Position numbers and translations under genes: made by a program. Shown piece by piece: positions 6,184 to 20,838 of a stretch of 64,000 bases of DNA (positions are counted from its first letter, which is position 1; the number at the start of each line of letters is the position of its first letter). Where the stretch lies: positions 248,001 to 312,000 of the forward strand of contig NZ_JAGGJP010000002.1 in NCBI RefSeq assembly GCF_017872975.1. Reading direction: 5' to 3'. The stretch comes from Rubellimicrobium aerolatum. GTDB taxonomy: Bacteria > Pseudomonadota > Alphaproteobacteria > Rhodobacterales > Rhodobacteraceae. Under the pieces are notes generated by a model. It was not told the origin of the DNA, searched no databases, and was given only the letters and a program-made list of their open reading frames with translations.

Positions 6184-6269
6184 GATCCTCTCCCTTGACC
6201 GCCTCCTCGCGGCCTTATGGGGGGGAAGATGCTCCTGCGGGGGGCCTCCGGTCAGCCCCGACGAAGGTC

Positions 6270-7028
6270 TTAGGCGGTTCGCCACCGACGGGCGCGCCCC
6301 TCGACGGGCTGGAGGAGGGCGTATTCCACCAGCAGCATGACGGCCACGAAGGCGGCCGAATAGGCCAGCACCGTCGCCACGTCGAAGAGCTGGAAATGCA
6401 GGTGGATCTGGAAGCCGACGCCGTTGGGGCGGCCCAGGAACTCCACCACGAGGACCAGCTTCCAGATGATCGCGAGGCCGTTCCGCGCGCTGGCGGCGAG
6501 GTAGGGGGCAAGCTGCGGGAGCAGGACGTGGCGGAGGCGCTGCCAGGGGGTCAGGCGGAACACCTTCGCCATGCCGGCCACGGCGGGGTCGAGGGCGCGG
6601 GCCCCCTCGCGCATCGTCACCAGCACCAGCGCGACCTTGTTGAAGGCGACCGCGCCGATGGCCGAGACCTCGTTCAGTCCGAACCAGATGTAGGCCAGCA
6701 CGATCACCACCAGCGCGGGCAGGTTCAGCGCGATCACCACCCAGGCGTCGGCCCAGCGGTCGAGCCTTGGGCGCGTGCCCAGCAGCAGCCCCAGCGCGGC
6801 GCCCACGACCATGGCGAGGCCGAAGGCCCAGGCGACGCGGGTCAGCGTGGCGAGGACGTGGCGGAGGAGGTCGCCGCTTTGCGCCTCGGACCACAGGACA
6901 TCGGCCACGCGCCAAGGGGTCGGCAGGCGCACCGGGTCCTGCGCCAGCGCGGCGGCGGCGGCCCAGATCGCCAGCATGGCAAGGAGCGACAATCCCAGCG
7001 CCGCGCGGTCCACCCTCGGCTTGGCCAT
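6270..7028 (-). CDS. ABC transporter permease, TauC/SsuC type
   Basis: A 252-residue inner-membrane permease with about six hydrophobic helices and the BPD_transp_1 EAA loop near residues 145-175 (the [13 protein letters not shown] region). It belongs to the nitrate/sulfonate/taurine importer group. No ATPase or binding protein of this type is adjacent. The matching ATPase (16301-16993) and periplasmic binding protein (17002-17973) lie about 9 kb away on the same strand, which suggests one transporter split by insertion of the cytochrome and PQQ-ABC genes. Substrate unknown; the setting suggests something needed for quinoprotein alcohol oxidation. Confidence 0.85.
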
Positions 7029-7103
7029 GGCCCCCTCTCCTTTTCATGGCAGACTGCGGCCGGGGCCGGGTCGGGTCAACGGCCCCCCGACGGTCCCCCG
7101 TCG

Positions 7104-7115
7104 CGACCTAGGTCG
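7104..7115. promoter_or_regulatory. Perfect 12-bp dyad CGACCTAGGTCG
   Basis: A perfect palindrome lies between the divergent permease and NosR-like genes, about 42 bases before the latter. The same CGACC-NN-GGTCG form and close variants occur in other intergenic regions of the PQQ island, so it is a candidate operator for the island's regulator. Inference from recurrence only. Confidence 0.45.
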
Positions 7116-7156
7116 TATGGGAGCGCGGGGGAAGCCCCGCCTATCCTGCGCCGATC

Positions 7157-9226
7157 ATGGCCGCGCTGCTCCGAATCCTGCTGCTGCTCCTCGTCGCCAC
7201 GGCGGCGCGCGGGGAGGTGCTGGGCCGCGAGGGGCTGGCGGGCTTCGTCCGCCCGCCGATGTCGGTGGGCGAGCCCTTGGGCGACGACGGCGTGTGGGAA
7301 CTTTTGAACTCCGGCGGCGCGCTGGCGGGTTACGTGTTCCAGACCGAACCGCTCGCGCCGATCCCCGGATTCTCGGGCGCGCCCATCGACCTGTTCGTGG
7401 CGCTGGACCTGGAGGGGCGCTTCATCGACGTGAAGCTGATCGCCCACAACGAGCCGATCTTCGTCTCGGGCCTGGGCGAGGCGCCGCTGCGGGCCTTCCT
7501 CGACCAGTATCGCGGGCTGTCCATCGCCGAGCCGATGGTGGTGGGGACGCCCTACGGCGACGCGGGGACCGGGTCGGCGCTGACCTATCTCGACGGGGTG
7601 ACGAAGGCGACGGCCTCGGTCCGCATCGCGCACGAGTCGATCCTGGCCGCCGCGCGGGAGGTGGCGCGGGAACGGATGCAGGGGATCGCGAGCGCCCCGC
7701 CCGCCGCGCCGGACCTTGCCCATCGCGAGGCGCTGGACTGGGATGCCTTGGTCGCGCAGGGGATCGCCTCGCGTAAGCGGGTGACGAACGCCGAAGTCGA
7801 GGCGGGCTTCGCCGGGACCAGATGGGCCGACGACGACCCGGAGGCGAAGGCCGACCCGGAGGGGGCGTATCTCGACCTCTGGATCGTGGACCTCGGCCCG
7901 CCGTCGATCCGCGACGCCGTGCTGGGCGAGGCGACGCTGGCGCGGCTGGCGCGACTGCTGGAGCTGTCCCCGACCGAGGAGCCGATCCTCGTCATCGACG
8001 CCGGGCGGCACGGGCTGGTGTCGCCGGACTTCGTGCGGAACACCGCGCCGGACCGGCTTTCGGCCACGCAGGACGGGCTGCCGCTGGCGCTGCGGGACGC
8101 GGACCTGTTGGTGGAGCTGAAGCCCGGCGTGCCCGAGGGGACGGCGATGATCCTGCGGACCGACCGGCGGCTGGGCTTCGACCCGTCGCGGCCCTGGGTC
8201 ATGGAGGTCGAGGCCGTCCGCGAGCACGGGATGTTCCAGCCCGAAGTGGGCCGCGTCACGCTGGAAGCGCCCCACGCCACGCCCGAGCGGTTTTTTCTCC
8301 GCGAGGAGCCCGCCGCGCCCCCCTCGCCGCTGCGCGAGGCGGTGCGGGCGCGGGCGGGCGACCTGTGGGTGCTGGGCGGGCTGGTGGTGGGGCTGGCCGT
8401 CCTGATGGGGCCGCTGATGCACCGCGTCGCGCGACGGGGCTGGCTCTTGCCGGTGCGGCTGGGGGTGCTGGCCGTGGTGCTGGGCTTCGTCGGCTGGTGG
8501 GGCCAGGGGCAGCTCTCCATCGTGACCGTGCTGGGCGCGGTGCGGACGGCGTGGGAGGGGGGGAGCTGGGCCTTCCTGCTCTACGACCCCTTCGGGCTGG
8601 CGGTCTGGGTCGCGGCGCTGGTCGGGCTGGTGGTCTGGGGCCGGGCGCTGTTCTGCGGCTGGCTGTGTCCCTTCGGCGCGATGCAGGAGTTCGCACATCA
8701 TGCCGGGCGGATGCTGCGTTTGCCGGAATGGGAGCCCTCGGCCCTCTGGGACCGCCGGCTGAAATGGGTGAAGTATGTCCTCCTCGCAGGCCTCGTGGCG
8801 GTGGTCTTCGTCGCCCCGGACCATGTGGACAAGGCGGCGGAGGTGGAGCCATTCAAGACCGCCATCACCACCGTCTTCGTCCGCGAATGGGTGTTCGTGG
8901 CCTATGCGGTGGGGCTACTGCTGCTCGGGATGGTGACGTTCAAGGGCTTCTGCCGCTACGCCTGCCCCCTGGGCGCGGTCATGGCCATCGGCGGGCTGGT
9001 CCGGGGCCGCGACTGGATCGCCCGGCGGGCGGAATGCGGCTCGCCTTGCCAGCTTTGCCGGGTGCGCTGCCGGTATGGAGCGATCGAGCCCTCGGGGAAG
9101 ATCGACTATTCGGAGTGCTTCGGCTGCCTGGACTGCGTGCAGATCCTCGACGACCCCCGGCAATGCGTGCCGAAGGTGCTGGCCGCGAAGGCGGCGCTGC
9201 GGATGCCGCAGAAGGAGGCCGCATGA
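7157..9226 (+). CDS. NosR/NirI-like FMN-binding polyferredoxin membrane protein
   Basis: A 689-residue protein with a signal peptide and a periplasmic FMN-binding domain. The flavinylation-like motif DGVTKAT spans residues 146-152, with Thr152 as likely acceptor, Lys replacing the usual Gly. A long periplasmic region follows, then five or so membrane helices from residue 395, with the paired motifs CGWLCP (500-505) and CRYACP (599-604), and a C-terminal ferredoxin-like region (cysteines 627, 631, 634, 638 and a second cluster). This is the architecture of NosR/NirI, which carry electrons across the membrane. No nosZ is present. The following gene encodes ApbE, the flavin transferase, and overlaps by four bases. 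An electron-transfer role in alcohol oxidation is inference. Confidence 0.88.
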   Translation: MAALLRILLLLLVATAARGEVLGREGLAGFVRPPMSVGEPLGDDGVWELLNSGGALAGYVFQTEPLAPIPGFSGAPIDLFVALDLEGRFIDVKLIAHNEPIFVSGLGEAPLRAFLDQYRGLSIAEPMVVGTPYGDAGTGSALTYLDGVTKATASVRIAHESILAAAREVARERMQGIASAPPAAPDLAHREALDWDALVAQGIASRKRVTNAEVEAGFAGTRWADDDPEAKADPEGAYLDLWIVDLGPPSIRDAVLGEATLARLARLLELSPTEEPILVIDAGRHGLVSPDFVRNTAPDRLSATQDGLPLALRDADLLVELKPGVPEGTAMILRTDRRLGFDPSRPWVMEVEAVREHGMFQPEVGRVTLEAPHATPERFFLREEPAAPPSPLREAVRARAGDLWVLGGLVVGLAVLMGPLMHRVARRGWLLPVRLGVLAVVLGFVGWWGQGQLSIVTVLGAVRTAWEGGSWAFLLYDPFGLAVWVAALVGLVVWGRALFCGWLCPFGAMQEFAHHAGRMLRLPEWEPSALWDRRLKWVKYVLLAGLVAVVFVAPDHVDKAAEVEPFKTAITTVFVREWVFVAYAVGLLLLGMVTFKGFCRYACPLGAVMAIGGLVRGRDWIARRAECGSPCQLCRVRCRYGAIEPSGKIDYSECFGCLDCVQILDDPRQCVPKVLAAKAALRMPQKEAA

Positions 9227-10092
9227 GGCGCCGCCGGTTCCTGTCCATCCTCGCCGCCGCGGCGCTGGCCCCCGGCCTGCCCCGCGCCCAGGAGTCGCGA
9301 ATCGCGCTGGGGGCCGAGGCGCGCATGACCCTTTACGGCCCGCCCGCTGTCACCGCCCGCGCCCGCGGCCGCGCCTGGGAGGAGATCGTGCGGATCGAGC
9401 GGGTGTTCAGCCTCCACGACCCCGCCTCGGCGCTGGCGCGGCTCAACGCGGCGGGCCGGCTCGACGCGCCTCCGCCCGAGCTGCTGGAGGTGCTGGCGCT
9501 GGCCGCGCAGCTCCACACGGCGACGGGCGGGCGGTTCGACCCCACGGTGCAGCCGCTCTGGCTCGCCCATGCGGGCGGCGGCGACGTGGAGGCCGCGCGG
9601 CGGCTGGTCGGCTGGGACGGCGTGGCCGCGACCCCCGAGGCGGTGACGCTGCGGGCCGGCCAGGCGCTCACGCTCAACGGCATCGCGCAGGGCTACGCCA
9701 CCGACCGCGTGACGGCGGTGCTGGCCGAGGAAGGGCTAACCCACGCGCTCGTCGAGATGGGCGAGTTCCGCGCCCTCTCCGGCCCGTTCCGCCTGGGGGT
9801 GGAGGACCCCGAGCACGGGCGGTTGGGTCAAGTGACGCTGGTGGACCGGGCCTGCGCCACGTCCTCGCCCGGCGCGATGACCCTGCCGGACGGCGCGGCG
9901 CATATCCTCGACCCGAGGGGGGCCGGCCCGGTCTGGTCCACCGTCACCGTCACCGCCCCCACGGCGGCGGTCGCGGACGGGCTCTCGACGGCGCTCTGCC
10001 TCACCCCGGCCGCCGAGGCGCGCGGCATCCTCGAACGGATGGACGCACGGGCCACGGCGGTGACGCCCGGCGGCGACCTGCTGACGCTCTGA
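9223..10092 (+). CDS. apbE: FAD:protein FMN transferase ApbE
   Basis: A 289-residue ApbE/NosX family protein. The N terminus has a twin-arginine-like signal (RRRRFLSILAAAALAPG). The family signatures are a central GGRFDPTVQPL, LNGIAQGYATD near residues 150-160 and a C-terminal HILDPR. ApbE attaches FMN covalently to Thr or Ser of partner proteins in the periplasm. The ATG overlaps the stop of the NosR-like gene (ATGA), so the two are translationally coupled and the upstream flavoprotein is the obvious substrate. The pair mirrors nosR-nosX of denitrifiers. Confidence 0.9.
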   Translation: MRRRRFLSILAAAALAPGLPRAQESRIALGAEARMTLYGPPAVTARARGRAWEEIVRIERVFSLHDPASALARLNAAGRLDAPPPELLEVLALAAQLHTATGGRFDPTVQPLWLAHAGGGDVEAARRLVGWDGVAATPEAVTLRAGQALTLNGIAQGYATDRVTAVLAEEGLTHALVEMGEFRALSGPFRLGVEDPEHGRLGQVTLVDRACATSSPGAMTLPDGAAHILDPRGAGPVWSTVTVTAPTAAVADGLSTALCLTPAAEARGILERMDARATAVTPGGDLLTL

Positions 10093-10153
10093 AGCTTGGA
10101 TCGGTCGCAGGCCGGGCTGAAGCCTGCCCTACGGAGATGCCCGTCCAAAAGAA

Positions 10154-10179
10154 CGCCCCGGAGCAGAGGCTCCGGGGCG
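10154..10179 (-). terminator. Intrinsic terminator between convergent operons
   Basis: A perfect 10-bp inverted repeat (CGCCCCGGAG, 6-base loop, CTCCGGGGCG). On the minus strand it is followed by TTCTTTTGG, so it terminates the MxaJ-like operon; it may also slow plus-strand transcription from apbE. Confidence 0.75.
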
Positions 10180-10224
10180 CGCAGGTGCCGGGTCCGGCAG
10201 GGAGGAAGGTCGTCGGCCCGGATT

Positions 10225-11121
10225 TCAGCGATCCGGCGGCGCGAAGGTCAGCCCGTGTTCTTCGAACAGCGCCGCCACCCGCCCGTCGGCCAGCGCGGCG
10301 GCGATGGCGTCGTCCACGGCATAGCCGAGGTCCCGGTGCGAGTGGTGCACCGCCACCCCCACCGTCCATTGCCCGACCGCCAGCCCGGCGAGAGACGGCT
10401 CGCCCACCGCGACGCCCTCGCCCGCCCCGTGCTCCAGCATGGCGCGCGGCCCCATGGCGGCCGACACCTCGCCCCGGTCCAGCGCCGCCATGGCGGCGGC
10501 CATCGTCGGATAGCGCCGGATATTGGCGTTGAGCTGCCCGCCCGCGAAGTTGGCGAGGTAGAAGTCGGCCAGGGTGTCGTTCTGCACCCCCACGAGGTCG
10601 AAGCGGAAGTAGGGCGGCGTCGGCGGCCCGTCGGGATAGGTCGCCTCGCGGTAGGCGACGGCGACCTTCTCCACGTAGGCCTGACCCGTGAACACCACCT
10701 GCTCCACCCGGCAGGCGAAGTCGGGGTTGTAGGGCACGTGCAGCATGACGTTCGCCACCACGTTCTCGCCCGCGCCCAGCGGCAGCCCCTGCCAGACGTT
10801 GTAGCGGAGGTCCGCCTCCAGGTTCTCCCCGGACTGGACGAAGCGGAAGCGCGGCTCCACCCCCAGCGCCTCGGCGACGATCCGGCCCAGGCCCACGTCG
10901 ATGCCGCGCGGCTCGCCCCCCTCCTCCCAGGAATAGGGGGGAAGGTTCTCGTAGGCCGCGAACTCGATCCAGCCGCGCGCCACGATCTCGTCGAGGCCCA
11001 GCCCCACGAAGTCGCGGTCGCGGTTCTGCACCGGCTGGCTGGGCACCACCCCCTCGCAGCGCGCGAAACCCGCGCCGGGCAGCAGCGCCAGCACCCCGGC
11101 GAGGACGACCCGCCGCCTCAC
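10225..11121 (-). CDS. MxaJ/XoxJ-like quinoprotein-associated binding protein
   Basis: A 298-residue periplasmic protein with a signal peptide, resembling the solute-binding-protein fold of the MxaJ/XoxJ family. Diagnostic stretches are NLPPYSWEEGGEPRGIDV near residues 60-77, RYNVWQGLPLGAGE near 105-120 and MLHVPYNPDF. XoxJ proteins are thought to help activate or stabilise lanthanide methanol dehydrogenases rather than import a solute. The GTG start lies one base after the stop of the cytochrome gene, so the two form an operon. The first residues RRRVVLAG are weakly twin-arginine-like. Confidence 0.85.
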   Translation of the reverse strand: MRRRVVLAGVLALLPGAGFARCEGVVPSQPVQNRDRDFVGLGLDEIVARGWIEFAAYENLPPYSWEEGGEPRGIDVGLGRIVAEALGVEPRFRFVQSGENLEADLRYNVWQGLPLGAGENVVANVMLHVPYNPDFACRVEQVVFTGQAYVEKVAVAYREATYPDGPPTPPYFRFDLVGVQNDTLADFYLANFAGGQLNANIRRYPTMAAAMAALDRGEVSAAMGPRAMLEHGAGEGVAVGEPSLAGLAVGQWTVGVAVHHSHRDLGYAVDDAIAAALADGRVAALFEEHGLTFAPPDR

Positions 11122-11122
11122 C

Positions 11123-11812
11123 TCAGTTCGCCACCGACAGCACGATGTCGATGAGCTGCGCGGCCTCGTGGAACTTCTCGGGGCTGCCGTCGATGACGCG
11201 TGCCGCGTGGGCCGCCGCGCTGTCGGCGACCGGGGCGCCCGACAGCGTCTCGAACCCGGCGTTGATCTCCAGCAGCTCGGCCTTCAGCGCCTCCACGTCC
11301 GCGCCCGCGGCGTCGGTCGCATAGCCCGCCAGCTTGTCGCGCATGGCGGTGAGCTGCGGCGCGGCCTCGACCACCTGCTGGTCGTCGGGCCGCGTCTCGA
11401 TGTAGGAGCGGATCGCCCAGGCGGCCTTCTGGCCCAGGATCTCGCCGAAGGCGGGCATCTTGGTCACGCCGTTCTGCGTCATGCCGTGCTGGAAGCGCTC
11501 CGCGAACCACTCGTCGCCATACTCCTCGGCCTCCAGGAACCGCAGGTCGGGGGCAAGGCCGCCCGAGATCGCGCCCAGGCCGTGGCAGCGCGCGCAGTTC
11601 TGGTTGAAGCCGGAATCGCCGATCTGGATGGCGGCCTGGAACACCTCGGGCTCCATGCTCCGGTAGGGGTTCTCGGTCAGCCACTCCTCGCCGATGTCGG
11701 GCAGGGCGTCGGTGTTGACGGCCTGCGGGGCCACGTCGCCATGGCCCCAGGCCAGCGTGGCGACGGCGATCAGCCCGGCCGCGAGGGGCCAGCGGGCGCG
11801 GATGGTGGTCAT
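11123..11812 (-). CDS. Cytochrome c-550, PedF-like
   Basis: A 229-residue periplasmic monohaem cytochrome c. A signal peptide precedes HGDVAPQAVNTDAL, and the haem site is CARCHGLGAISGG near residue 77, with a likely axial Met in GVTKMPAF. The start of the mature protein and the NQNCARCHG block resemble PedF, the electron acceptor of PQQ ethanol dehydrogenases. It should carry electrons from the quinoprotein encoded at 18178 towards a terminal oxidase. I chose MTTIRARW because an AGGAGGA site precedes it and the signal peptide begins there. A C-terminal extension of about 90 residues is helical and Ala/Glu-rich. Confidence 0.85.
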   Translation of the reverse strand: MTTIRARWPLAAGLIAVATLAWGHGDVAPQAVNTDALPDIGEEWLTENPYRSMEPEVFQAAIQIGDSGFNQNCARCHGLGAISGGLAPDLRFLEAEEYGDEWFAERFQHGMTQNGVTKMPAFGEILGQKAAWAIRSYIETRPDDQQVVEAAPQLTAMRDKLAGYATDAAGADVEALKAELLEINAGFETLSGAPVADSAAAHAARVIDGSPEKFHEAAQLIDIVLSVAN

Positions 11813-11896
11813 GCGGGTCGTCCTCCTCGGGGGTGCCCTCTCGCGGGGCGCGGCGTCAGGGGCGAAGGTAAGGGACGGGTCAGCCCTCCTGCCATT

Positions 11897-11909
11897 CGAC
11901 CTTGGTGGC
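11897..11909 (+). promoter_or_regulatory. 13-bp motif CGACCTTGGTGGC, copy 1
   Basis: It lies between the divergent cytochrome and binding-protein genes. The same 13 bases occur at 20013-20025 ahead of the LuxR regulator. It is an imperfect form of the CGACC-NN-GGTCG dyad seen at 7104 and 11930. Confidence 0.45.
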
Positions 11910-11929
11910 AACGGGCCCCCCCGCGCGTC

Positions 11930-11941
11930 CGACCATGGTCG
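11930..11941. promoter_or_regulatory. Perfect 12-bp dyad CGACCATGGTCG
   Basis: A second perfect CGACC-NN-GGTCG palindrome, 33 bases from the imperfect copy at 11897, in the divergent intergenic region of the cytochrome and PQQ-ABC genes. Candidate operator; no protein-binding evidence. Confidence 0.45.
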
Positions 11942-11980
11942 CGGTTCGCCCGCCCCCTCGGGCCGCTATCCTCGCCGTTC

Positions 11981-12023
11981 AAGGCCAAGGCCAGATCGGG
12001 GCCAAGGCCAAGGCCAAGGCCAA
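11981..12023 (+). repeat. Hexanucleotide tandem repeat before the PQQ-ABC operon
   Basis: Two copies of AAGGCC (11981-11992) and, after a 7-base interruption, four perfect copies of GGCCAA (12000-12023) run up to the GGGAGGA ribosome-binding site of the next gene. Copy-number change here would alter the leader just ahead of translation start. Confidence 0.75.
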
Positions 12024-12036
12024 GGGAGGACGACCC

Positions 12037-13212
12037 ATGCGACCCCATCCGCTCGCGGCCGCCCTGCTGGCCGCCCTCTGCGCCCTGCCGGCCGTGGCCG
12101 AGGAGTTGCCCGTGCCCATCGCCTACCTGCGCCAGCAGGTGGAGCGGCCGCCGGTGCTGTCCGAGCTGGACCCGATCCCCGCCGACGACGGCCTCGCCGG
12201 CGCGCGACTCGGCCGCGACGACAACGCCACCACGGGGGGGTTCCTCGGCCACGACTACCGCCTCGCGGTCGTGGACGTGCCCGTGGGCGGCGACTGGGAG
12301 GCCGCCGCGCGCGCGGCGCTGGCGGACTCGCGCCTCCTCGTCGTGGACGCGCCCGCCGACGCCCTCCTGCGCCTCGCCGATCTCCCCGAGGCCGGCGACG
12401 CCCTCCTCCTCAACGTGAGCGCCCCCGAGGACCGGCTCCGGGGCCCCGACTGCCGGGCCAACGTCCTCCACGCCCTGCCCTCGCTGGGGATGCGCGCCGA
12501 CGCCCTGGCGCAGTTCCTGCAGGCGCGGCGCTGGACCGATGTCGCGCTGCTCGCCGGGCCGTTCCCCGAGGACCGGGCCTGGGCGCAGGCGCTCCGCGAC
12601 GCCGCCACCAAGTTCGGGCTGTCCCTCACGGACGACCGCGACTGGACCCAGACCGGCGACCTCGGCCGCACCGCGCAGGGCGAGATCCCGATGCTGACGC
12701 AGGGCTTCGCCGCCCACGACGTGCTGCTGGTCGCCGACGAGGTGGGCGACTTCGGCCGCTACGTCCCCTTCAACACCTGGGAGCCGCGCCCGGTGGCGGG
12801 GTCCGAGGGGATCACGCCCGTCGCCTGGTCGCCGGTCATGGAGGACTGGGGCGCGAGCCAGCTCCAGGGCCGGTTCGAGGGCCTCGCGGATCGCCCGATG
12901 CGCCCCAAGGACTACGCCGCCTGGACGGCCGTCCGCGCGCTGGGCGAGGCGGTGACGCGCACCGGCTCGGCCGACCCGGCCAGCCTGCGCGCCTACCTCC
13001 TGTCGCCCGAGTTCGAGATGGACGGCTTCAAGGGCCGCCCGCTGTCGTTCCGCGACTGGGACGGGCAGCTTCGCCAGCCGATCCCGGTGACGCAGCCCCG
13101 CGCTATGATCGGCATGGCCCCCTTCGAGCCCTTCCTCCACGAATCGAACGAGCTGGACACGCTGGGGACCGACCGGCCCGAGAGCCGTTGCGCGGTTTTC
13201 GCAAGCCAATGA
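12037..13212 (+). CDS. PQQ alcohol dehydrogenase-associated ABC binding protein
   Basis: A 391-residue exported protein with a clear signal peptide (cleavage near AVAEE). It has the branched-chain amino-acid binding fold but begins with LPVPIAYLRQQVERPPVLSEL and carries DDNATTGGFLG, features of the family annotated as ABC substrate-binding protein of PQQ-dependent alcohol dehydrogenase systems (TIGR03863 type). Related genes in Pseudomonas putida belong to the pedA1A2BC locus, which supports growth on lanthanides. It begins a run of same-strand genes with the beta-propeller, ATPase and permease. GGGAGGA precedes the ATG. Substrate unknown. Confidence 0.83.
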   Translation: MRPHPLAAALLAALCALPAVAEELPVPIAYLRQQVERPPVLSELDPIPADDGLAGARLGRDDNATTGGFLGHDYRLAVVDVPVGGDWEAAARAALADSRLLVVDAPADALLRLADLPEAGDALLLNVSAPEDRLRGPDCRANVLHALPSLGMRADALAQFLQARRWTDVALLAGPFPEDRAWAQALRDAATKFGLSLTDDRDWTQTGDLGRTAQGEIPMLTQGFAAHDVLLVADEVGDFGRYVPFNTWEPRPVAGSEGITPVAWSPVMEDWGASQLQGRFEGLADRPMRPKDYAAWTAVRALGEAVTRTGSADPASLRAYLLSPEFEMDGFKGRPLSFRDWDGQLRQPIPVTQPRAMIGMAPFEPFLHESNELDTLGTDRPESRCAVFASQ

Positions 13213-13247
13213 TCCGGATGGGAAAAGGTGTTGATTTTCCGTTGCGC

Positions 13248-13261
13248 GCAACGCCCGTTGC
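13248..13261. promoter_or_regulatory. 14-bp inverted repeat GCAACGCCCGTTGC
   Basis: A perfect 6-2-6 dyad in the gap before the beta-propeller gene, inside a locally AT-richer stretch. Followed by TGTC it matches an element at 47663-47676 with one difference, in the spacer. A candidate operator or promoter element of unknown regulator. Confidence 0.45.
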
Positions 13262-13339
13262 TGTCGGGCTTCGTTAACCCTTTTCTGCGAACCTCGTCGT
13301 GCAAGCCCATCCCTGCCCAAAGGAGCGAAGACCCCGACC

Positions 13340-14308
13340 ATGACCCGACCCGCCGCCGCCATCCTCGCCGCCCTTCTCCTGTCCTCCGCCCTCCCGGCGG
13401 GGGCCGAGGAGATCTGGGTGACGAACGAGCTGGACGACACCATCAGCGTCATCGACGCCGGAACGCTGGAGGTCACGCGGACCATCCCCACCGGCGACCG
13501 CCCGCGCGGCATCACCTTCGCGCATGACGGCAGCGTGGTCTACATCTGCGCCTCGGACAGCGACGCCGTGCAGGTCATGGACCCCCAGACCGGCGAGATC
13601 CTGCACGACCTCCCCTCGGGCGAGGACCCGGAGCAGTTCGCGCTGGCCCCCGACGGCCGGCACCTCTGGATCGCCAACGAGGACGACGCCATCACGACCG
13701 TCGTGGACGTGGAGAGCCGCCGCGTGGTCGCCCAGATCAACGTCGGCATCGAGCCCGAGGGCATGGCCGTCTCGCCGGATGGGCGCATCGCCATCACCAC
13801 GAGCGAGACGACCAACATGGCCCACTGGATCGACACCGCGACCCACGAGGCCTTCGCGAACACGCTGGTGGACACCCGCCCCCGCCATGCCGAGTTCACC
13901 GATGACGGCGCGCGGCTCTGGGTGTCGTCCGAGATTGGCGGCACGGTGACGGTGTTCGCCACCGCCGACCAGGCGGAGCTGGCCAAGATCCGCTTCGCCA
14001 TCCCCGGCGTGAGGGACGAGCAGATCCAGCCGGTCGGCTTCGAGTTCACGGCGGACGGCGCGACCGCCTTCGTGGCGCTGGGCCCGTCGAACCACGTGGC
14101 CGTGGTGGACGCCGCGACCTACGAGGTCGAGGACTACATCCTCGTCGGCCGCCGCGTCTGGCACATGGCCTTCAGCGCGGATGGGTCTAAGCTGTTCACG
14201 ACGAACGGGGTCTCGGGGGACGTGACGGTGATCGACGTGGCCAGCCGCGAGGCGCTGTCCTCCATCAAGGTCGGGCGCTTCCCCTGGGGCGCGGCGCTGC
14301 GGCCGTGA
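13340..14308 (+). CDS. YVTN beta-propeller protein of PQQ-ABC locus
   Basis: A 322-residue exported protein with a signal peptide and about seven 40-residue YVTN-type repeats, for example IWVTNELDDTISVIDAGT, which should fold as a beta-propeller. It matches the family called PQQ-dependent catabolism-associated beta-propeller (TIGR03866 type). The role is not proven; it sits in the periplasm with the ABC components. The downstream ATPase starts at a GTG overlapping this stop by four bases (GTGA), which shows tight coupling. An AAAGGAG site precedes the ATG. Confidence 0.85.
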   Translation: MTRPAAAILAALLLSSALPAGAEEIWVTNELDDTISVIDAGTLEVTRTIPTGDRPRGITFAHDGSVVYICASDSDAVQVMDPQTGEILHDLPSGEDPEQFALAPDGRHLWIANEDDAITTVVDVESRRVVAQINVGIEPEGMAVSPDGRIAITTSETTNMAHWIDTATHEAFANTLVDTRPRHAEFTDDGARLWVSSEIGGTVTVFATADQAELAKIRFAIPGVRDEQIQPVGFEFTADGATAFVALGPSNHVAVVDAATYEVEDYILVGRRVWHMAFSADGSKLFTTNGVSGDVTVIDVASREALSSIKVGRFPWGAALRP

Positions 14309-15024
14309 GCGGGCTGGAGGTTCACAACATCGGCTTCCGCTACGGCGCCAAGGTGGCGCTGGAGGGCGTGAGCTTCGCCGTGGAGCCGGGCCGCTTCTGC
14401 GCGCTCCTCGGCCCCAACGGCGCAGGGAAATCGACGCTGTTCGCGCTGCTGACCGGGCTTCTCTCCGCGCCCGAGGGGACGATCCATGTCGCCGGCCACG
14501 ACATCCGGCGCGAACCGACCAAGGCGCTGGCGCGCATGGGCGTGGTGTTCCAGCAGCCGACGCTCGACCTCGACCTGACGGTGGCGCAGAACCTCCGCTA
14601 CTTCGCCGCGCTGCAAGGGCTGTCGGGCCGCGAGGCCGCGACGCGGATCGAGGGCGCGCTCGACCGCCTCGGCATGGCCGAGCGGGCGGGCGAGAAGGCG
14701 CGGGCGCTGAACGGCGGCCACCGCCGCCGGACCGAGATCGCGCGGGCGCTGCTCCACCGCCCCGCCGTCCTGCTGCTCGACGAGCCGACGGTGGGCCTTG
14801 ATGCCGCGTCCCGCGCGGCGATCACCGACCACGTTCACAGGCTGGCGCGCGAGGACGGGCTCACGGTCCTCTGGGCCACGCACCTGACCGACGAGGTGGA
14901 CCCGTCGGACGACCTCGTGATCCTGCACCAGGGCCGCGTGCTGCGCCACGCCACCGCCGGGGCGTTGACGGGGGGGGCGCCGCTGACCGAGGTGTTCCTC
15001 GGCCTGACGAGGGCCGCCGCATGA
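14305..15024 (+). CDS. ABC transporter ATPase of PQQ-ABC locus
   Basis: A 239-residue ABC ATPase with Walker A GPNGAGKST, Q-loop VVFQQPTL, and Walker B VLLLDEPTVGLD. The signature region reads LNGGHRRRTEIARA, so LSGGQ is altered to LNGGH, a variant seen in this PQQ-associated subfamily (TIGR03864 type) and in ABC-2 exporters. It pairs with the next gene, whose start overlaps this stop (ATGA). Together they form an ABC-2 type system that may export a compound linked to alcohol oxidation or lanthanide use. Confidence 0.87.
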   Translation: MSGLEVHNIGFRYGAKVALEGVSFAVEPGRFCALLGPNGAGKSTLFALLTGLLSAPEGTIHVAGHDIRREPTKALARMGVVFQQPTLDLDLTVAQNLRYFAALQGLSGREAATRIEGALDRLGMAERAGEKARALNGGHRRRTEIARALLHRPAVLLLDEPTVGLDAASRAAITDHVHRLAREDGLTVLWATHLTDEVDPSDDLVILHQGRVLRHATAGALTGGAPLTEVFLGLTRAAA

Positions 15025-15812
15025 GCCGTTACCTCACAGCCCTCCGCGCCATCGTCGCCCGCGAGGCGCTGCGCTTCCTCGGCCAGCGCGAGCGGTTCCT
15101 GTCGGCGCTGGTGCGCCCGCTGGTCTGGCTCCTCGTCTTCGCGGCGGGGTTCCGGGCGGCGCTGGGCCTGTCGATCACGCCGCCCTACCAGACCTACATC
15201 GAATACGAGACCTACATCGTCCCCGGCCTCTGCGGGATGATCCTGCTGTTCAACGGGATGCAGTCGTCCCTGTCGCTGGTCTACGACCGCGAGATGGGGT
15301 CGATGCGGCTCCTGCTCACGGCCCCCCTGCCCCGCTGGTGGCTCCTCGTCTGCAAGCTGCTGGCGGGGACGGCGATCGGGGTCCTGCAATGCTATGCGTT
15401 CCTTTTGGTCGCCTGGCTCTGGGGCATCCGGATGCCCTGGGGAGGCTACCTCGCCGCGCTGCCGGCGCTGGTGGTGGCGGGGCTGATGCTGGGGGCGCTG
15501 GGTCTGGCGCTGTCGTCGCTGGTCAAGCAGCTCGAGAACTTCGCGGGCGTGATGAACTTCGTCATCTTCCCGATGTTCTTCCTGTCCTCGGCGCTCTACC
15601 CGCTCTGGCGGATGCAGGAGGCGGGCGACCTCCTCCACGACATCTGCGCGGCGAACCCCTTCACCCACGCGGTGGAGCTGGTGCGCTTCGCGCTCTACCT
15701 CCAGTTCAACCCGGTCGCCCTGGGCTGGACCGTCCTCGCGACGGCGGCGTTCCTGGGACTGTCGCTCTGGGGCTACGACCCGGCGCGGGGGATGATGGGG
15801 CAGAAGGCCTGA
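15021..15812 (+). CDS. ABC-2 type permease, PedC-like
   Basis: A 263-residue inner-membrane protein with about six hydrophobic segments and the ABC-2 family block SALVRPLVWLLVFAAGF near residues 28-44. It resembles PedC, the permease of the alcohol-oxidation ABC systems (TIGR03861 type). It is translationally coupled to the ATPase upstream. The ABC-2 topology suggests export rather than import, although the operon also encodes a binding-protein-like component, so direction is unclear. Confidence 0.85.
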   Translation: MSRYLTALRAIVAREALRFLGQRERFLSALVRPLVWLLVFAAGFRAALGLSITPPYQTYIEYETYIVPGLCGMILLFNGMQSSLSLVYDREMGSMRLLLTAPLPRWWLLVCKLLAGTAIGVLQCYAFLLVAWLWGIRMPWGGYLAALPALVVAGLMLGALGLALSSLVKQLENFAGVMNFVIFPMFFLSSALYPLWRMQEAGDLLHDICAANPFTHAVELVRFALYLQFNPVALGWTVLATAAFLGLSLWGYDPARGMMGQKA

Positions 15813-15830
15813 CACATGAGGAGACCTGAC

Positions 15831-16361
15831 ATGATGCGACGCGCGACCGTTCTGCTCCTTGTCCTCGCCGCCCCGGCGCTCGCGGACGACTACGGGACGA
15901 CGAACCCCGAGGAGATGACCCTGGATCGCATGGTCGAGAACGCGAGGCGCGGGCAGACCGACATGGCGACCTGCGCCTCGGGGTATCTCATGACCAAGTC
16001 CGGCCAGCACGGCGCGGCGCGCGAGACCTTCACCGCCTGCGCCGAGGCCGGCTACACCGGGGCGATGACCTGGATGAGCTACCTCGACGACAACGGCTTC
16101 GGTGGCGACACCAACCCCGACGCCTCGACCGAGTGGAACCGCCGCGCGGCCGAAGCGGGCGACCCCATCGGGATGTTCAACCACGGCCTCGACCTCCTGC
16201 GCGGGCATGGCACGGCAGTGGACGAGGCGGCGGGACGGGCGCTGATCGACCGCGCCGCCGAGGCGGGCGTCGCGCACGCGCAACGGCTGGTCGGCGCGGG
16301 CTACGACCCCGACGAGGTGACGCCCGACGCCGACAACTGGAAGTATGCGCCGGCGTTCTGA
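15831..16361 (+). CDS. Exported Sel1-repeat-like protein
   Basis: A 176-residue protein with a signal peptide (cleavage near ALADDYG) and two or three Sel1/TPR-like helical repeats, with alternating AAEAGDP and AAEAGVA signatures. Such repeats mediate protein contacts. It follows the permease by 18 bases and is likely part of the same operon. I start at the second of two nearby ATGs because GAGGAG lies eight bases before it. Its last 61 bases overlap the end of the convergent ATPase gene. Confidence 0.75.
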   Translation: MMRRATVLLLVLAAPALADDYGTTNPEEMTLDRMVENARRGQTDMATCASGYLMTKSGQHGAARETFTACAEAGYTGAMTWMSYLDDNGFGGDTNPDASTEWNRRAAEAGDPIGMFNHGLDLLRGHGTAVDEAAGRALIDRAAEAGVAHAQRLVGAGYDPDEVTPDADNWKYAPAF

Positions 16362-16993
16362 CGCTCCTCCTCGATCCGGGCGGGGCGGCCGCCGAGGCGG
16401 AGGATGCGGCCCGCCAGCGCCTCGGCCTCGCGCGGGTCGTGGGTGACGAGGATGGTGGCGGTCTCGTGCCGGGCGCGCAAGCGGGCGAAGAGCCCCATCA
16501 TCTCCCGCACCCGCGCCTCGTCGAGCGAGACGAAGGGCTCGTCCATCAGGAGGAGGTCGGGCTTGCAGGCGAAGGCACGGGCGAGCGACAGGCGGCGCTG
16601 CTGGCCGAGCGAGATCTGCGACGGGTAGAGCCCGCCGGTGCCGCCGAGGCCGACCTCCACCAGCGCGGCCTCGGCCTCCTCGGCGGTGATCCCGGCGACC
16701 AAGGTCAGATTCTGCGAGAGAGTCCGCCACGGGAGGAGCGTCGGCTCCTGGAACACCATGGCGAGGCGGCCATGGCGGCGCACCTGCCCGTTGCCGGGCT
16801 TCGCGAGGCCCGCGACGACGCGCAGGAGCGTGGTCTTGCCGATGCCCGAGGGGCCGAGGAGCGCCACCGTCTCGCCCCGCCGGACGCGCAGCCGGATGGG
16901 GCCGAGGACGGGCGACCCGCCCAGCGATAGGCCGGGCAGGTCGAGGTCGAGCACCACGGGGGGCACGGCCTCGCGCGCGGGCAGGTCGAGCAC
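16301..16993 (-). CDS. ABC transporter ATPase, TauB/SsuB type
   Basis: A 230-residue ATPase with Walker A GPSGIGKTT, Q-loop MVFQEPTLLPW, a modified signature ISLGQQRRLSLARA, Walker B LLLMDEPFVSLD and H-loop VTHDP. The PW after the Q-loop is typical of nitrate/taurine/sulfonate importers. The gene follows the binding-protein gene with an 8-base gap. The partner permease is absent here and is probably the one at 6270-7028. The C terminus runs 61 bases into the antisense of the Sel1 gene. Confidence 0.87.
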   Translation of the reverse strand: MLDLPAREAVPPVVLDLDLPGLSLGGSPVLGPIRLRVRRGETVALLGPSGIGKTTLLRVVAGLAKPGNGQVRRHGRLAMVFQEPTLLPWRTLSQNLTLVAGITAEEAEAALVEVGLGGTGGLYPSQISLGQQRRLSLARAFACKPDLLLMDEPFVSLDEARVREMMGLFARLRARHETATILVTHDPREAEALAGRILRLGGRPARIEEERQNAGAYFQLSASGVTSSGS

Positions 16994-17001
16994 CGGGGGC
17001 C

Positions 17002-17973
17002 TCAGCCGCCGGTGCCGACGAAGACGCCGGGCGGCAGGGACGTGGCGGTGCCGACCAGCTCCTCGCCACCCAACTCCGCCATCAGGCGCAGCATCCGGTC
17101 GGCGGCTTCCTCGTCCACCGGGCCGGTTGCCGGGATGCCGGCGAGGAAGCCCTCGCGAAGCGCGGCGAACTCGGCGTCATCCTTGGCGTTCATGATCGGG
17201 CGGATGCGTTCCCACGCGGCATCGTCGGTGGCCAGCCGGTCCTTGGCCCCGCGCGAGGCGGCGGCGAGACCCTCGGCGAGGCCGGGGTTGGCGTCCAGCG
17301 TCTCCTCGTGGAGCACGTAGCCCAGGAGCGGCGTCTCGGGGTCGAGGCCGAGCGACAGCGCGGCGTCCTCGACCGAGATCAGCTCGCGCATCCCGGCGGC
17401 CTCCATCTTGGCGTGGAAGTGCCAGAAGTTGATCGCGCCATCGAGTTCGCCCGAGAGCGCGGTCTCGTAGATCAGCGGCGGCGCGCCGAAGACCTGCTCG
17501 GTCTCGGCCTGGAGGTCGAGGCCGTATTCCTGCTGGGCGTAGGCGCGCAGGATCAGCCAGGACTTGTCCACCGGGCCGCCGGCGATGCCGACCTTGCCGC
17601 CCGCGAGGTCGGCAAGGCTCTGGGCCGGGCTGTCGGCGGCGACGAGGAGGCCGCCCACGGCCTTGGAATAGGGCAGGAACACGAGGTCCATCCCCGCCGC
17701 CCGCTGCCGCGCCACCCAGAGCCAGTCGGAGACGATGGTATCGACCTCACCGGCGAGGAAGGCGGTCTGCGCGGCTGGCGAGCCCGCGAACTCCTGCACC
17801 TGAAGGTCGAAGCCGTTCGCGGCGTCGAGCCCCTCGGCCTCGATGGTGTTCAGCTCCCAAAGGACGGTGCCCGAGGCCTGCACCCCGGCGGTCAGCACGG
17901 GCCCTTCGGCCCAGGCGGCGGTGGACAGGCACGCGGCGGCCAGCGCCCCCCAGGCGGCGTGATGGATGGTCAT
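17002..17973 (-). CDS. ABC periplasmic binding protein, NitT/TauT type
   Basis: A 323-residue periplasmic binding protein with a signal peptide ending near AWAEGP. It has the fold of NMT1/TauA-type proteins: an early VQASGTVLWELNTIE, DTIVSDWLWVARQR near residue 80 and a central GGKVGIAGGP loop. It is read with the ATPase downstream. GGGAGGAG lies before the ATG. The ligand is unknown. It is divergent from the quinoprotein gene, so both may use the 200-base region between them. Confidence 0.87.
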   Translation of the reverse strand: MTIHHAAWGALAAACLSTAAWAEGPVLTAGVQASGTVLWELNTIEAEGLDAANGFDLQVQEFAGSPAAQTAFLAGEVDTIVSDWLWVARQRAAGMDLVFLPYSKAVGGLLVAADSPAQSLADLAGGKVGIAGGPVDKSWLILRAYAQQEYGLDLQAETEQVFGAPPLIYETALSGELDGAINFWHFHAKMEAAGMRELISVEDAALSLGLDPETPLLGYVLHEETLDANPGLAEGLAAASRGAKDRLATDDAAWERIRPIMNAKDDAEFAALREGFLAGIPATGPVDEEAADRMLRLMAELGGEELVGTATSLPPGVFVGTGG

Positions 17974-18029
17974 TGGCGCTCCTCCCAAAGCTCTCGGCCC
18001 TAGCCTACCGGCGTTCCGGCCACGGGCTA

Positions 18030-18072
18030 TACGACCAAAGCCGCAGCCGCCGGGGCCGTCGTTTACGACCAA
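18030..18072 (+). promoter_or_regulatory. Two TACGACCAA direct repeats upstream of the quinoprotein gene
   Basis: TACGACCAA occurs at 18030-18038 and 18064-18072, 34 bases apart, between the binding-protein and quinoprotein genes. The CGACC core is the half-site of the dyads at 7104 and 11930, so these could be paired sites for the same activator. Inference. Confidence 0.4.
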
Positions 18073-18075
18073 CGT

Positions 18076-18111
18076 GGGATATGAGGCGGCAAGCGCGCGG
18101 CTCAATATCCC
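18076..18111. promoter_or_regulatory. Interrupted dyad GGGATATGAG / CTCAATATCCC
   Basis: Arms at 18076-18085 and 18101-18111 pair over ten bases with one bulged A, 67 bases before the quinoprotein ATG. It could be an operator or a leader hairpin. Confidence 0.35.
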
Positions 18112-18177
18112 GGCAGGGGCCAACCTGCGCGCGACCGCGCCGGATCAAGGCCGGGACGGGAAACGGGGAGGAACTCC

Positions 18178-19944
18178 ATGCTACGCTTCGCACTGGCCGC
18201 GACGGTCAGCCTATTGGCCATGGGCACGGCCCAGGCCCAGGTCACGCAGACCGACATCGCCAACGACGCCACGACCACCGCCGACGTGGTGACGAACGGC
18301 ATGGGCCAGACGCTCCAGCGCTACAGCCCGCTGGACCGGCTGAACCGCCAGAACGTCCAGAACCTCGTTCCGGCCTGGGCCTTCTCGCTGGGCGGGGAAA
18401 AGCAGCGCGGGCAGGAATCGCAGCCGCTCGTCTATGACGGGGTGATGTATGTCACCGGATCCTATTCGCGGCTCTACGCCATCGACATCGCGACCGGGAA
18501 GGAGCTCTGGCAATACGATGCCCGCCTGCCCGAGGGCATCCTGCCCTGCTGCGACGTGGTGAACCGGGGCGCGGCGCTCTATGGCGACATGGTGATCTTC
18601 GGGACGCTCGACGCGCGGCTCGTGGCGCTGGACCGCAAGACCGGCGACGTGATCTGGAACAAGGAGATCGCGGAATACAAGGCGGGCTACAGCTACACCG
18701 CCGCGCCGCTGATCGTGAACGGCCTCGTCATCACCGGCAACTCGGGCGGGGAGTTCGGGGTCGTCGGCGAGGTGCAGGCCCGCGACGCCAACACCGGCGA
18801 GATCGTCTGGACCCGGCCCACCATCGAGGGCCACATGGGCACGCTGAACGGCGAGCCCTCCACGATGACCGGCGTGCAGAACGCCACCTGGCCGGGCGAC
18901 ATGTGGAAGACCGGCGGCGGGGCGACCTGGCTCGGCGGCTCCTACGACGCCGAGACGGACACGCTGATCTTCGGCGCGGGCAACCCCTCGCCCTGGAACA
19001 GCCACCTGCGCGGCGCGGGCAAGCCCACCGAGGGCAACACCGGCGACAACCTCTACGCCGCCTCGCGCATCGGGATCGACCCTGCGACCGGCGAGATCAA
19101 GTGGCACTTCCAGACCACCCCGCGCGAGGGCTGGGACTTCGACGGCGTGAACGAGGTCGTCCCCTACACCGACCGCGAGGGGAACGGCCGGCTCGCCACC
19201 GCCGACCGCAACGGCTTCTTCTACATCCTGAACCGCGAGGACGGGGCCTTCCTGCGCGCCACGCCCTTCGTCCAGAACATCACCTGGGCCAGCGGCATCG
19301 GCGAGGACGGCCGCCCGATCTACAACGAGGACAACCGTCCGGGCGACCCGGCGGCGGCGGCCGAGGGCGAGAAGGGCGAGACCGTGTTCGCCGTGCCGTC
19401 CTTCCTCGGCGGCAAGAACTGGATGCCGATGGCCTACAGCCAGCGGACCGGCAACTTCTACGTGCCCTCCAACGAATGGGGCATGGACATCTGGAACGAG
19501 CCCGTCACCTACCGCGAGGGCGCGGCCTATCTCGGGTCCGGCTTCACCATCAAGCCGATCTTCGAGGACCATATCGGCAGCCTCAAGGCGATCGACCCCG
19601 ACACCGGCGAGATCAAGTGGGAATACAAGAACCCCGCGCCTCTCTGGGCGGGGGTGATGACCACGGCCGGCGGACTGGTGTTCACCGGCACGCCCGAGGG
19701 CGAGTTCATCGCGCTGGACGACGAGACAGGCGAGGTCCTGTGGTCCTTCCAGACCGGCTCGGGCATCGTCGGCCAGCCGATCACCTGGGAGCAGGACGGC
19801 GAGCAATACGTCACGGTCGTCTCGGGCTGGGGCGGGGCGGTGCCGCTCTGGGGCGGCGAGGTCGCGAACCGGGTGAACTACCTCAACCAGGGCGGCATGG
19901 TCTGGACGTTCCGCCTGCCGAAGGAGCTCGCCTCGGCCGAATGA
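18178..19944 (+). CDS. Lanthanide-type PQQ alcohol dehydrogenase (ExaF/PedH-like)
   Basis: A 588-residue periplasmic quinoprotein with a signal peptide (cleavage near AQAQ). It has the vicinal cysteines Cys124-Cys125 (PCCD) of PQQ alcohol dehydrogenases, the metal ligands in GNSGGEFG and GAGNPSPWN, and the catalytic Asp320 in GWDFDGVNE. Asp322, two residues later, is the extra acid that marks lanthanide-dependent enzymes; calcium enzymes have Ala or Ser there. The body ([36 protein letters not shown]) resembles ethanol dehydrogenases ExaF/PedH rather than MxaF. It oxidises primary alcohols and reduces a cytochrome c. An AGGAACTCC-like site precedes the ATG and a strong terminator follows. Confidence 0.92.
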
Positions 19945-19966
19945 CCGGAGCGGCATGAGCGAGAGG

Positions 19967-20003
19967 CCGGCGCGTCCCGCGAGGGGCGCGCCGGTTCCCG
20001 TTT
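19967..20003 (+). terminator. Intrinsic terminator after the quinoprotein gene
   Basis: A 12-bp stem (CCGGCGCGTCCC with GGGGCGCGCCGG, one T-G wobble) closed by a GCGA tetraloop and followed by TTCCCGTTT. It ends the quinoprotein transcript before the regulator gene. Confidence 0.85.
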
Positions 20004-20012
20004 CGGAGGCTG

Positions 20013-20025
20013 CGACCTTGGTGGC
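20013..20025 (+). promoter_or_regulatory. 13-bp motif CGACCTTGGTGGC, copy 2
   Basis: Identical over 13 bases to 11897-11909, here 59 bases before the LuxR regulator ATG. If it binds that regulator, the gene would be autoregulated. Inference. Confidence 0.45.
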
Positions 20026-20083
20026 GTAGGCGCGGCGGGGCGGCGCTGCTAGGTTGGAGGGAGCCAGACCCCGGACGAGCATC

Positions 20084-20773
20084 ATGATTCAGGCCAGTTC
20101 CCTCGCCCTCCTGCCCCGAACCTTCGAGACGGCGCTGATCGTGGACGACCATCCGCTGTTCTGCGACGCCCTGTCGATGACGCTGCGGGCCGTCGCCGGG
20201 ATCGGCCGCACCGAGACCGCCGACAGCCTTGCCGCCGCGCTGGCGCGGGTGGAGGGCAAGGGAGTGGACCTCGTGGTGCTCGACCTGAACCTCCCGGACG
20301 TGAGCGGGCTCGACGGGCTGCTTCGGCTCAAGGCGGCGGTCGGCGAGGTGCCGGTGGTGATCGTCTCCTCGATGACGGACCATCGGATGATCGCGGCGGC
20401 CATCCGCGCCGGCGCCTCGGGCTTCGTGCCCAAGCACAGCCAGCGCGACGTGTTCCGCCGCGCCCTGGCCGAGATCGCGCTGGGCGGCACCTTCGTCCCC
20501 GAGGGCGTCGTCGTGGAGGACGAGGACGCGCCGCTCGGCGGACCCGAGGAGGCGATCCGACGGCTGTCGCAACTGACCCGCCAGCAGTCGCGCATCCTGG
20601 AGCTGATCTGCGAAGGCAAGCTCAACAAGCAGATCGCCTTCGACCTGTCCATCGCCGACGCCACCGTGAAGGCGCATGTCACCGCGATCATGCGCAAGCT
20701 GGGCGTGCAGACGCGGACCCAGGCCGTGCTGCTGGCGCGGGAGGTCAGCTTCTCCACGATCTTGCACGACTGA
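20084..20773 (+). CDS. LuxR/NarL-type response regulator (ErdR/PedR1-like)
   Basis: A 229-residue response regulator. The receiver domain has the acidic pair VDDHPLF, the phosphorylated Asp67 in VVLDLNLPD, and the Lys in FVPKHS. The C-terminal LuxR helix-turn-helix reads LTRQQSRILELICEG and KQIAFDLSIADATVKAHVTAI. Regulators of this group (AgmR, ErdR, PedR1) activate PQQ alcohol dehydrogenase genes, which fits the position directly downstream. The ATG lacks a close ribosome-binding site, so the start is tentative. It is followed by the FIST and kinase genes on the same strand. Confidence 0.88.
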   Translation: MIQASSLALLPRTFETALIVDDHPLFCDALSMTLRAVAGIGRTETADSLAAALARVEGKGVDLVVLDLNLPDVSGLDGLLRLKAAVGEVPVVIVSSMTDHRMIAAAIRAGASGFVPKHSQRDVFRRALAEIALGGTFVPEGVVVEDEDAPLGGPEEAIRRLSQLTRQQSRILELICEGKLNKQIAFDLSIADATVKAHVTAIMRKLGVQTRTQAVLLAREVSFSTILHD

Positions 20774-20838
20774 TGCCCGACCCGCTACGCTCCTTCGGCA
20801 GCCGGACGACAACGAACCGCCGGCTGGGGAGGAGCATC

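Follow-up and report, generated by a model that had tools for sequence, protein, structure and literature searches.

An inverted repeat shared by the PQQ alcohol-oxidation genes of Rubellimicrobium aerolatum is probably the operator of a neighbouring response regulator

Do the alcohol-oxidation genes that lie together in one genomic island of Rubellimicrobium aerolatum (Alphaproteobacteria; Rhodobacteraceae) share a control site, and which protein would read it? Our study addresses this question in a stretch of 64,000 nucleotides (assembly GCF_017872975.1, contig NZ_JAGGJP010000002.1, C2:248001-312000 in a genome of 3.76 Mb and 59 contigs), hereafter the window, whose island for pyrroloquinoline quinone (PQQ)-dependent alcohol oxidation also encodes a LuxR-type response regulator. 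A preliminary description had reported a CGACC-NN-GGTCG dyad in the intergenic regions of this island, and the eight strings that it quoted are all present at their positions, letter for letter. By computation we obtained the boxes, their conservation, their spacing to a -10 element and their co-occurrence with the regulator. We conclude that the motif is, with high probability, a genuine and widely conserved control site common to the alcohol-oxidation genes of the island; its most likely reader is the regulator encoded next to it. Response regulators of a type widespread in the Alphaproteobacteria, for which the papers searched gave no site, would thereby gain a precisely defined binding site and a list of targets. 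The site further predicts that the NosR-like/ApbE pair and the PQQ-associated ATP-binding cassette (PQQ-ABC) genes, both of obscure role, act jointly in lanthanide-type alcohol oxidation, and it connects the control of this oxidation with the acetate box of Pseudomonas.

Two weight matrices were used to delimit the operator. The first (exaA matrix) was derived from the regions upstream of orthologues of the quinoprotein gene, or exaA promoters, in 80 named alphaproteobacterial loci, with the window left out; it has 19 columns, and because its seed was picked by eye before it was fitted on 75 of the 80 loci, those 75 promoters are no independent test of it. At these promoters the full form of the operator is TACGACCWWKGTNCAATWY. 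On both strands of the window, the best place for this matrix is 18064-18082, with 22.7 bits; the second, at the exaC start, scores 9.8 bits, and 20011, 11928 and 11892 come third, sixth and ninth. The second matrix, a symmetric 16-mer, was built from 138 sites at several promoter classes of 80 other genomes, and its eight best places in the window are, in order, 11895, 7102, 18064, 18030, 11928, 24967, 20011 and 6257. Seven of these are sites of the preliminary description. These seven of its eight sites belong to one operator; the eighth, at 13288, does not. At least 10 bits were reached at 7 places of the window, six of them already described, where 60 Markov-resampled windows average 1.0, and at least 12 bits at 5 places, where they average 0.35. 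It is important to note that lone sites of 10-12 bits are not significant, the best place per resampled window averaging 11.1 bits; the set is. The sole outsider among the top eight, TTAAATCATTGTCCCA at 24967-24982 (11.2 bits), lies downstream of the kinase gene. The boxes and their predicted -10 elements are listed below, where the genus comparison covers the window and four other genomes of the genus (5 of 5 includes the window) and ranks are those on the symmetric matrix.

6257..6272, minus strand: operator box of the exaC-type gene, read on that strand as TAAGACCTTCGTCGGG; eighth; kept in 4 of 4 genus genomes
7102..7117, plus strand: operator box of the NosR-like/ApbE genes; second; kept in 5 of 5
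7142..7147, plus strand: predicted -10 TATCCT of the NosR-like gene; offset +40; kept in 5 of 5
11865..11870, minus strand: predicted -10 TACCTT of the PedF gene; offset +40; string not conserved in the genus alignment
11895..11910, minus strand: operator box of the PedF gene; best; kept in 5 of 5, one with an altered half
11928..11943, plus strand: operator box of the PQQ-ABC binding-protein operon; fifth; kept in 5 of 5
11967..11972, plus strand: predicted -10 TATCCT of the PQQ-ABC operon; offset +39; kept in 5 of 5
18002..18007, minus strand: predicted -10 TAGGCT of the NMT1-type gene, a reading of the sequence; offset +38
18030..18045, minus strand (set from the -10): operator box nearer the divergent NMT1-type gene; fourth; in three congeners too
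18064..18082, plus strand: operator box of the quinoprotein gene in its 19-bp form TACGACCAACGTGGGATAT; third; in three congeners too
18103..18108, plus strand: predicted -10 region CAATAT of the quinoprotein gene; offset +39, as in 66 orthologous promoters
20011..20026, plus strand: operator box of the response-regulator gene; seventh; recognisable in 5 of 5
20050..20055, plus strand: predicted -10 TAGGTT of the response-regulator gene; offset +39

For the form near 6259, the best reading is that of the minus strand, TAAGACCTTCGTCGGGG. The 11930 dyad was found not to overlap a start codon, the PQQ-ABC binding-protein gene most likely starting at 12037, behind GGGAGGA.

An operator common to the promoters of one PQQ alcohol-oxidation island should be kept at orthologous promoters, and such conservation is seen in the genus and across the Alphaproteobacteria, but not for 13288. 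Within the genus, all five genomes have recognisable NosR, PedF, ABC-protein and regulator boxes, and four of four have the exaC box; the tandem pair of boxes at the exaA promoter is found in the window and in three congeners, with L161 left out. The propeller region holds no conserved box in the alignment. For the 80 named loci we recorded the best exaA-matrix score in 280 bases around each start, with a cut of 10 bits. The cut was exceeded in 49 of 61 upstream regions of PedF genes (coding stretches, 0/61), in 46 of 62 of ABC-protein genes, whose divergent region is common with PedF (2/62), in 9 of 17 of NosR-like genes (0/17), in 4 of 7 of exaC genes, two of these seven being only 32-38% identical (0/7), and in 15 of 53 of regulator genes (0/53). 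None of the genes internal to operons did so upstream (propeller 0/65, SBP3 0/62, ABC1 0/59, NosP-like 0/51), and the coding control of SBP3, at 4/62, stands above its own upstream regions. The NMT1-type gene, with 18 of 27 upstream regions over the cut, was left out of these counts, its upstream region being that of exaA. In addition, TACGACCWWNGKNCAATW with at most one mismatch was searched in 20 genomes (about 99 Mb) picked for having an exaA box, yielding 30 matches against 6 for the reversed pattern. Twenty of the 30 have the sequence of their own genome's exaA box; of the other ten, two belong to PedF/ABC protein, one to a NosR-like gene and one lies between a NosR-like gene and a gene that we take to be PqqB-like, two are beside a presumably CoxG-like gene (one downstream of the box, one divergent), and four have no evident link.

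Which protein reads the box? The preliminary description had pointed to the LuxR-type regulator of the island, and co-occurrence with the box supports this link. Orthologues of the regulator (at least 50% identity) and exaA boxes of at least 10 bits were recorded in 79 genomes, 49 judged by locus and 30 by whole-genome search (E 1e-30), with L040 left out. An orthologue is present in all 70 genomes with a box and in 3 of the 9 without one (Fisher 3e-7, the kinship of the genomes being ignored); thus the six genomes that lack the orthologue also lack a 10-bit box. Over cuts from 8 to 20 bits the Fisher value ranges from 3e-7 to 1e-4, the split at 8 bits being 73, 1, 0 and 5. We therefore consider it likely, and hold this with good though not complete confidence, that the motif serves as operator for the two-component system encoded in the island itself, with the putative regulator at 20084-20773 reading it as a class-II activator.

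The alternative that survives best is that the operator is real while another LuxR/NarL-type regulator (AgmR/ErbR-, ExaE/PedR2- or CrbR-like), from a gene outside the island, binds it and the island regulator has other targets. The ped/exa genes of Pseudomonas are targets of AgmR and PedR2/ExaE (PMC12997753), this genome encodes other response regulators, and in 21 of the 80 genomes the box is present and the regulator is not within the locus. These 21 genomes nevertheless carry an orthologue elsewhere at 57-66% identity, and in the R. aerolatum genome, with 28 matches in all, the other regulators reach only 32% identity over most of the length, partial matches going up to 38%. Together with the co-occurrence and with the box before the regulator's own gene, this makes the alternative unlikely. 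Roughly 100 bases before exaA, two Rhizobiaceae metagenome-assembled genomes without a regulator orthologue (L056, L061) have another repeat, TACCAAGGTA. In their distant regulators, KAHVSKIL stands in place of the KAHVTAIM of most orthologues; the two differences together would fit a changed specificity of the regulator but do not prove it.

How the operator of the island's regulator would act is suggested by its place. In exaA promoters aligned on the box (n=66), a -10 element like (G/A)ATA(A/C)T begins 39 bases from the first T, and exactly at this offset 43 of the 66 have at most two mismatches from TATAAT; in the window, as judged by eye, a -10-like hexamer follows 6 of 7 boxes, with offsets from +38 to +40. 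The conserved element exceeds the dyad core, its CAAT side and its distance to the -10 being conserved too. The centre of the repeat lies 31.5 bases before the predicted -10 and over the -35, so the full operator, 39 bases before the predicted hexamer, has the geometry of a class-II activator site. A dimer of the phosphorylated LuxR/NarL-type regulator would bind the imperfect inverted repeat TACGACC-WW-GGTCGTA and, because of this position, would recruit RNA polymerase in the class-II manner, with one box per direction in the divergent PedF/ABC-protein and NMT1/quinoprotein regions. The genes activated would be those for the quinoprotein, PedF, PQQ-ABC, NosR-like/ApbE and exaC proteins and probably the regulator's own operon, the box before the regulator gene suggesting self-control. 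The NahK-like kinase and its NosP-like partner would sense an alcohol, an aldehyde, or nitric oxide (NO) or haem. Less probable than binding by another regulator, and to our judgement improbable, is that the boxes are repressor or architectural sites and not class-II activator sites. RfdRS of Rhodobacter sphaeroides, which is related in its gene order, has been described as a presumed repressor of adhI (PMC4776306); on the other side, the conserved place before the -35/-10 equals that of the ACTU box at -52 to -36 from which CrbR activates (PMC5715377).

Several points weigh against activation by the island's regulator. The regulator occurs without a 10-bit box in three genomes (L054, with 9.7 bits, L059 and L072), L049 is boxed without an orthologue at the 8-bit cut, and the co-occurrence statistic ignores the relatedness of the genomes. 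The class-II reading rests on predicted -10 elements, and the exaC box has no good one at the usual offset, only CATCTT at +41. At the 10-bit cut, self-control of the regulator is not general, as the 15 of 53 regions above indicate. For EmaR of Acinetobacter, which shares 53% identity with ErdR, a different motif has been reported (PMC9603970). Finally, binding, activation, the phosphorelay and its signal are inferences.

It is also necessary to ask how far the dyad core alone marks the island. With at most two mismatches it occurs at 175 places across the window, against a mean of 140 in shuffles, none of 100 shuffles giving as many, and the exact form CGACCNNGGTCG occurs at 33 places in the genome, 2 of them within the window. 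To judge the 31 exact copies and the 8 CGACCWWGGTGG places outside the window, the phase of the G+C content was measured over 60 bases on either side; known intergenic regions of this genome reach up to 0.17. All four exact copies with an A or T at both central positions (WW) are non-coding-like, two being in the window and two outside it (L086, 0.12; L088, 0.03), whereas the 29 with another centre have values of 0.25-0.53, the lowest (L114, 0.25) being ambiguous (Fisher 2.4e-5 at a cut of 0.2 that was chosen after the data were seen). The CGACCWWGGTGG copies are coding-like or borderline (0.32-0.60). Genome-wide, CGACCWWGGTSG has 10 forward and 8 reverse matches, and its reversed control pattern 2 and 1. 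The pattern TACGACCWWNG, with 4 matches in the genome, 3 of them in the island, is not enriched as such: its reversed control matches 6 times on the forward and 6 times on the reverse strand. The core is therefore ruled out as a sufficient signature by its spread through the window, its copies in the genome and their coding-like phases; it is by their A/T-A/T centre and their position that the island copies stand out. L086 and L088 are not supported as targets, the exaA matrix giving them 0.2 and -1.9 bits; a start codon follows L088 at a distance of about two dozen bases. That the boxes are chance or compositional repeats of a genome of 72% GC, as the coding-like copies and the reversed control of TACGACCWWNG might suggest, is contradicted for seven of the eight places by conservation, spacing, coding controls and the independent matrix scan, and we regard it as next to negligible. 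The 13288 string, before the beta-propeller gene, is of this chance type; having neither a matrix match nor conservation in congeners, and with 0 of 65 propeller upstream regions above 10 bits, it was removed from the operator.

The term undescribed, used for the operator in the preliminary description, is too strong: a very similar repeat, bound up with a related regulator, has been published for acetate genes of Pseudomonas, and given this close resemblance the operator type cannot count as new. In P. fluorescens and other Gammaproteobacteria, the ACTU motif, a 17-bp imperfect inverted repeat, occupies positions -52 to -36 and is required for activation dependent on the LuxR-type response regulator CrbR (ErdR), whose regulon serves acetate use (acs, actP) and whose kinase CrbS has an SLC5 transporter domain (PMC5715377). 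Its acs form, TACTACCATCGTCGAAT, has the same core as the island operator and scores 14.9 bits on the exaA matrix, a value reached in 0 of 3000 shuffles; three other forms score 7.8, 5.9 and 3.2 bits, with 1, 2 and 8 of 3000 shuffles as high. The type of the box and, as far as a predicted -10 allows, its place before the promoter are those of ACTU. In contrast, the island genes serve PQQ alcohol oxidation and not acetate use, the island kinase has PAS domains and no SLC5 match, and the regulator, whose nearest NCBIfam model is ErdR, obtains 162.7 bits under a cut-off of 390. Because kinase and regulon differ and the regulator falls under this cut-off, the system is not filed as CrbS/R; by analogy it would work like CrbS/R. 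For ErdR of P. putida, an acsA-I fragment without the box is not shifted (PMC8402216), which agrees with box dependence, and ErdR has also been studied by AIDmut-Seq (PMC9927353).

Two further families of systems resemble the island in part. FlhRS of Paracoccus denitrificans and AfdRS/RfdRS of R. sphaeroides are two-component systems of methanol/formaldehyde genes in Rhodobacteraceae-type bacteria, with an extra open reading frame (ORF) between regulator and kinase (PMC4776306, PMC8879981); in gene order alone, the regulator, FIST protein and kinase found here correspond to their regulator, small ORF and kinase, whereas their targets are glutathione-dependent formaldehyde and mxa/mau genes and those of the island would be PQQ alcohol genes. 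The ped/exa cluster of Pseudomonas putida and P. aeruginosa likewise holds a quinoprotein, a PedF cytochrome, PQQ-ABC genes and a NosP-like/NahK-like pair (PP_2663-PedS1), but its regulators are AgmR and PedR2/ExaE, unlike the regulator proposed here (PMC12997753). In open-licence papers no description of an alphaproteobacterial PQQ-gene box was found; the original FlhR and AfdR papers lie outside that scope and may describe one. A broader scheme is offered tentatively: one operator-regulator pair of Rhodobacterales, Rhizobiales and Rhodospirillales might be the master switch of lanthanide-type PQQ alcohol oxidation, including the cytochrome, the NosR-like/ApbE genes and, in part of the genomes, PQQ synthesis; its NosP/NahK-like sensor might couple NO or haem with alcohols, FlhR/AfdR-type regulators might read the box, and ErdR-type boxes might have switched between acetate and alcohol metabolism when the partner kinase changed.

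The genes of the island, called by the G+C phase at third codon positions and by family models, are the following.

4666-6183, minus strand: exaC-type acetaldehyde dehydrogenase (NF050026, 923.7 bits, cut-off 900)
6270-7028, minus strand: ABC permease
7157-9226, plus strand: NosR-like Fe-S protein (NosR model, 440 bits, cut-off 1000)
up to 10092, plus strand: ApbE, after the NosR-like gene; the pair spans 7157-10092
10225-11121, minus strand: SBP3
11123-11812, minus strand: PedF-type cytochrome c550 (TIGR04494, 191 bits, cut-off 122)
12037-13212, plus strand: PQQ-ABC binding protein; operon 12037-15812, with TIGR03863 and TIGR03866 over cut-off within it
13340-14308, plus strand: beta-propeller
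up to 15812, plus strand: ABC ATPase and permease pair (ABC_tran, ABC2_membrane)
15816-16361, plus strand: ORF
16301-16993, minus strand: ABC ATPase
17002-17973, minus strand: NMT1-type ABC binding protein (PF09084), start read from sequence
18178-19944, plus strand: PQQ-dependent alcohol dehydrogenase (quinoprotein) of PedH/ExaF type (TIGR03075; best solved relative PedH, 6zcv)
20084-20773, plus strand: LuxR/NarL-type response regulator, the proposed binder (Response_reg and GerE)
20773-22011, plus strand: NosP-like FIST-domain protein (FIST, FIST_C)
about 22008-24233, start approximate, plus strand: NahK/ErcS'-like hybrid histidine kinase (PAS_7, HisKA, HATPase_c, Response_reg)

The nearest named relatives of the quinoprotein, at 82-83% identity, are from Salipiger, Rhodobacter and Jannaschia. 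We take the residues DFD and DFS to distinguish lanthanide from calcium enzymes. The quinoprotein has DFD, like PedH (6zcv, 6zcw) and not the DFS of ExaA (1flg), and is on this assumption probably of the lanthanide type, which fits the lanthanide idea of the preliminary description. The NosP-like protein obtains 373 bits on the NosP model (cut-off 450), and the kinase 406 bits on the NahK model (cut-off 1500) and 378 on near_NosP_CTERM (cut-off 400); neither equivalog model passing its cut-off, the two are not assigned as a NosP-NahK sensor pair. A tandem GGCCAA-type repeat occupies 11981-12028, after the predicted transcription start of the PQQ-ABC binding-protein gene and ahead of its start codon; it was not seen in the four congeners aligned.

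Further places of the box concern other genes. Among the pqq operons of five congeners, the pqqB start was located in three: in L246 a box of 13.7 bits, with TAGGCT at +39, lies some 220 bases upstream, in L248 a box of 20.2 bits lies 1.4 kb upstream, and L249 has no top-3 matrix match upstream. In the genome of the window itself, neither pqqB (TIGR02108) nor pqqE (TIGR02109) is over cut-off, pqqE being found in 5 of 8 genus genomes; this absence reflects either an assembly gap (95.6% complete) or reliance on outside PQQ. A good box also stands beside the presumed CoxG-like gene in Gemmobacter aquatilis, and divergently in Palleronia salina (L237, L233), which makes this gene a possible further target. 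Upstream of adhI, the class-III alcohol dehydrogenase (ADH) gene, of relatives, 10 bits were exceeded in 0 of 30 regions on the exaA matrix and in 2 of 30 (L135, L154) on the symmetric one. The fourth TACGACCWWNG copy, at C21:35609, lies before an adhI-like start as TACGACCAAAG; it scores 9.2 bits, has no -10 at offset 39 as judged by eye, is absent in 3 of 3 congeners and is thus not supported. Its surroundings (L082:2094-4789, G000:C21:33093-35788) encode a SoxYZ-like carrier (TIGR04557) and a SoxH-related hydrolase (TIGR04559), with the adhI-like start at the contig end; since the class-III ADH of congeners neighbours a second quinoprotein, this suggests a contig break inside such a cluster. 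Lastly, the quinoprotein was found on plasmids in 308 records and the regulator in 142, and in Ruegeria, Leisingera and others the two lie side by side on the same plasmid replicon.

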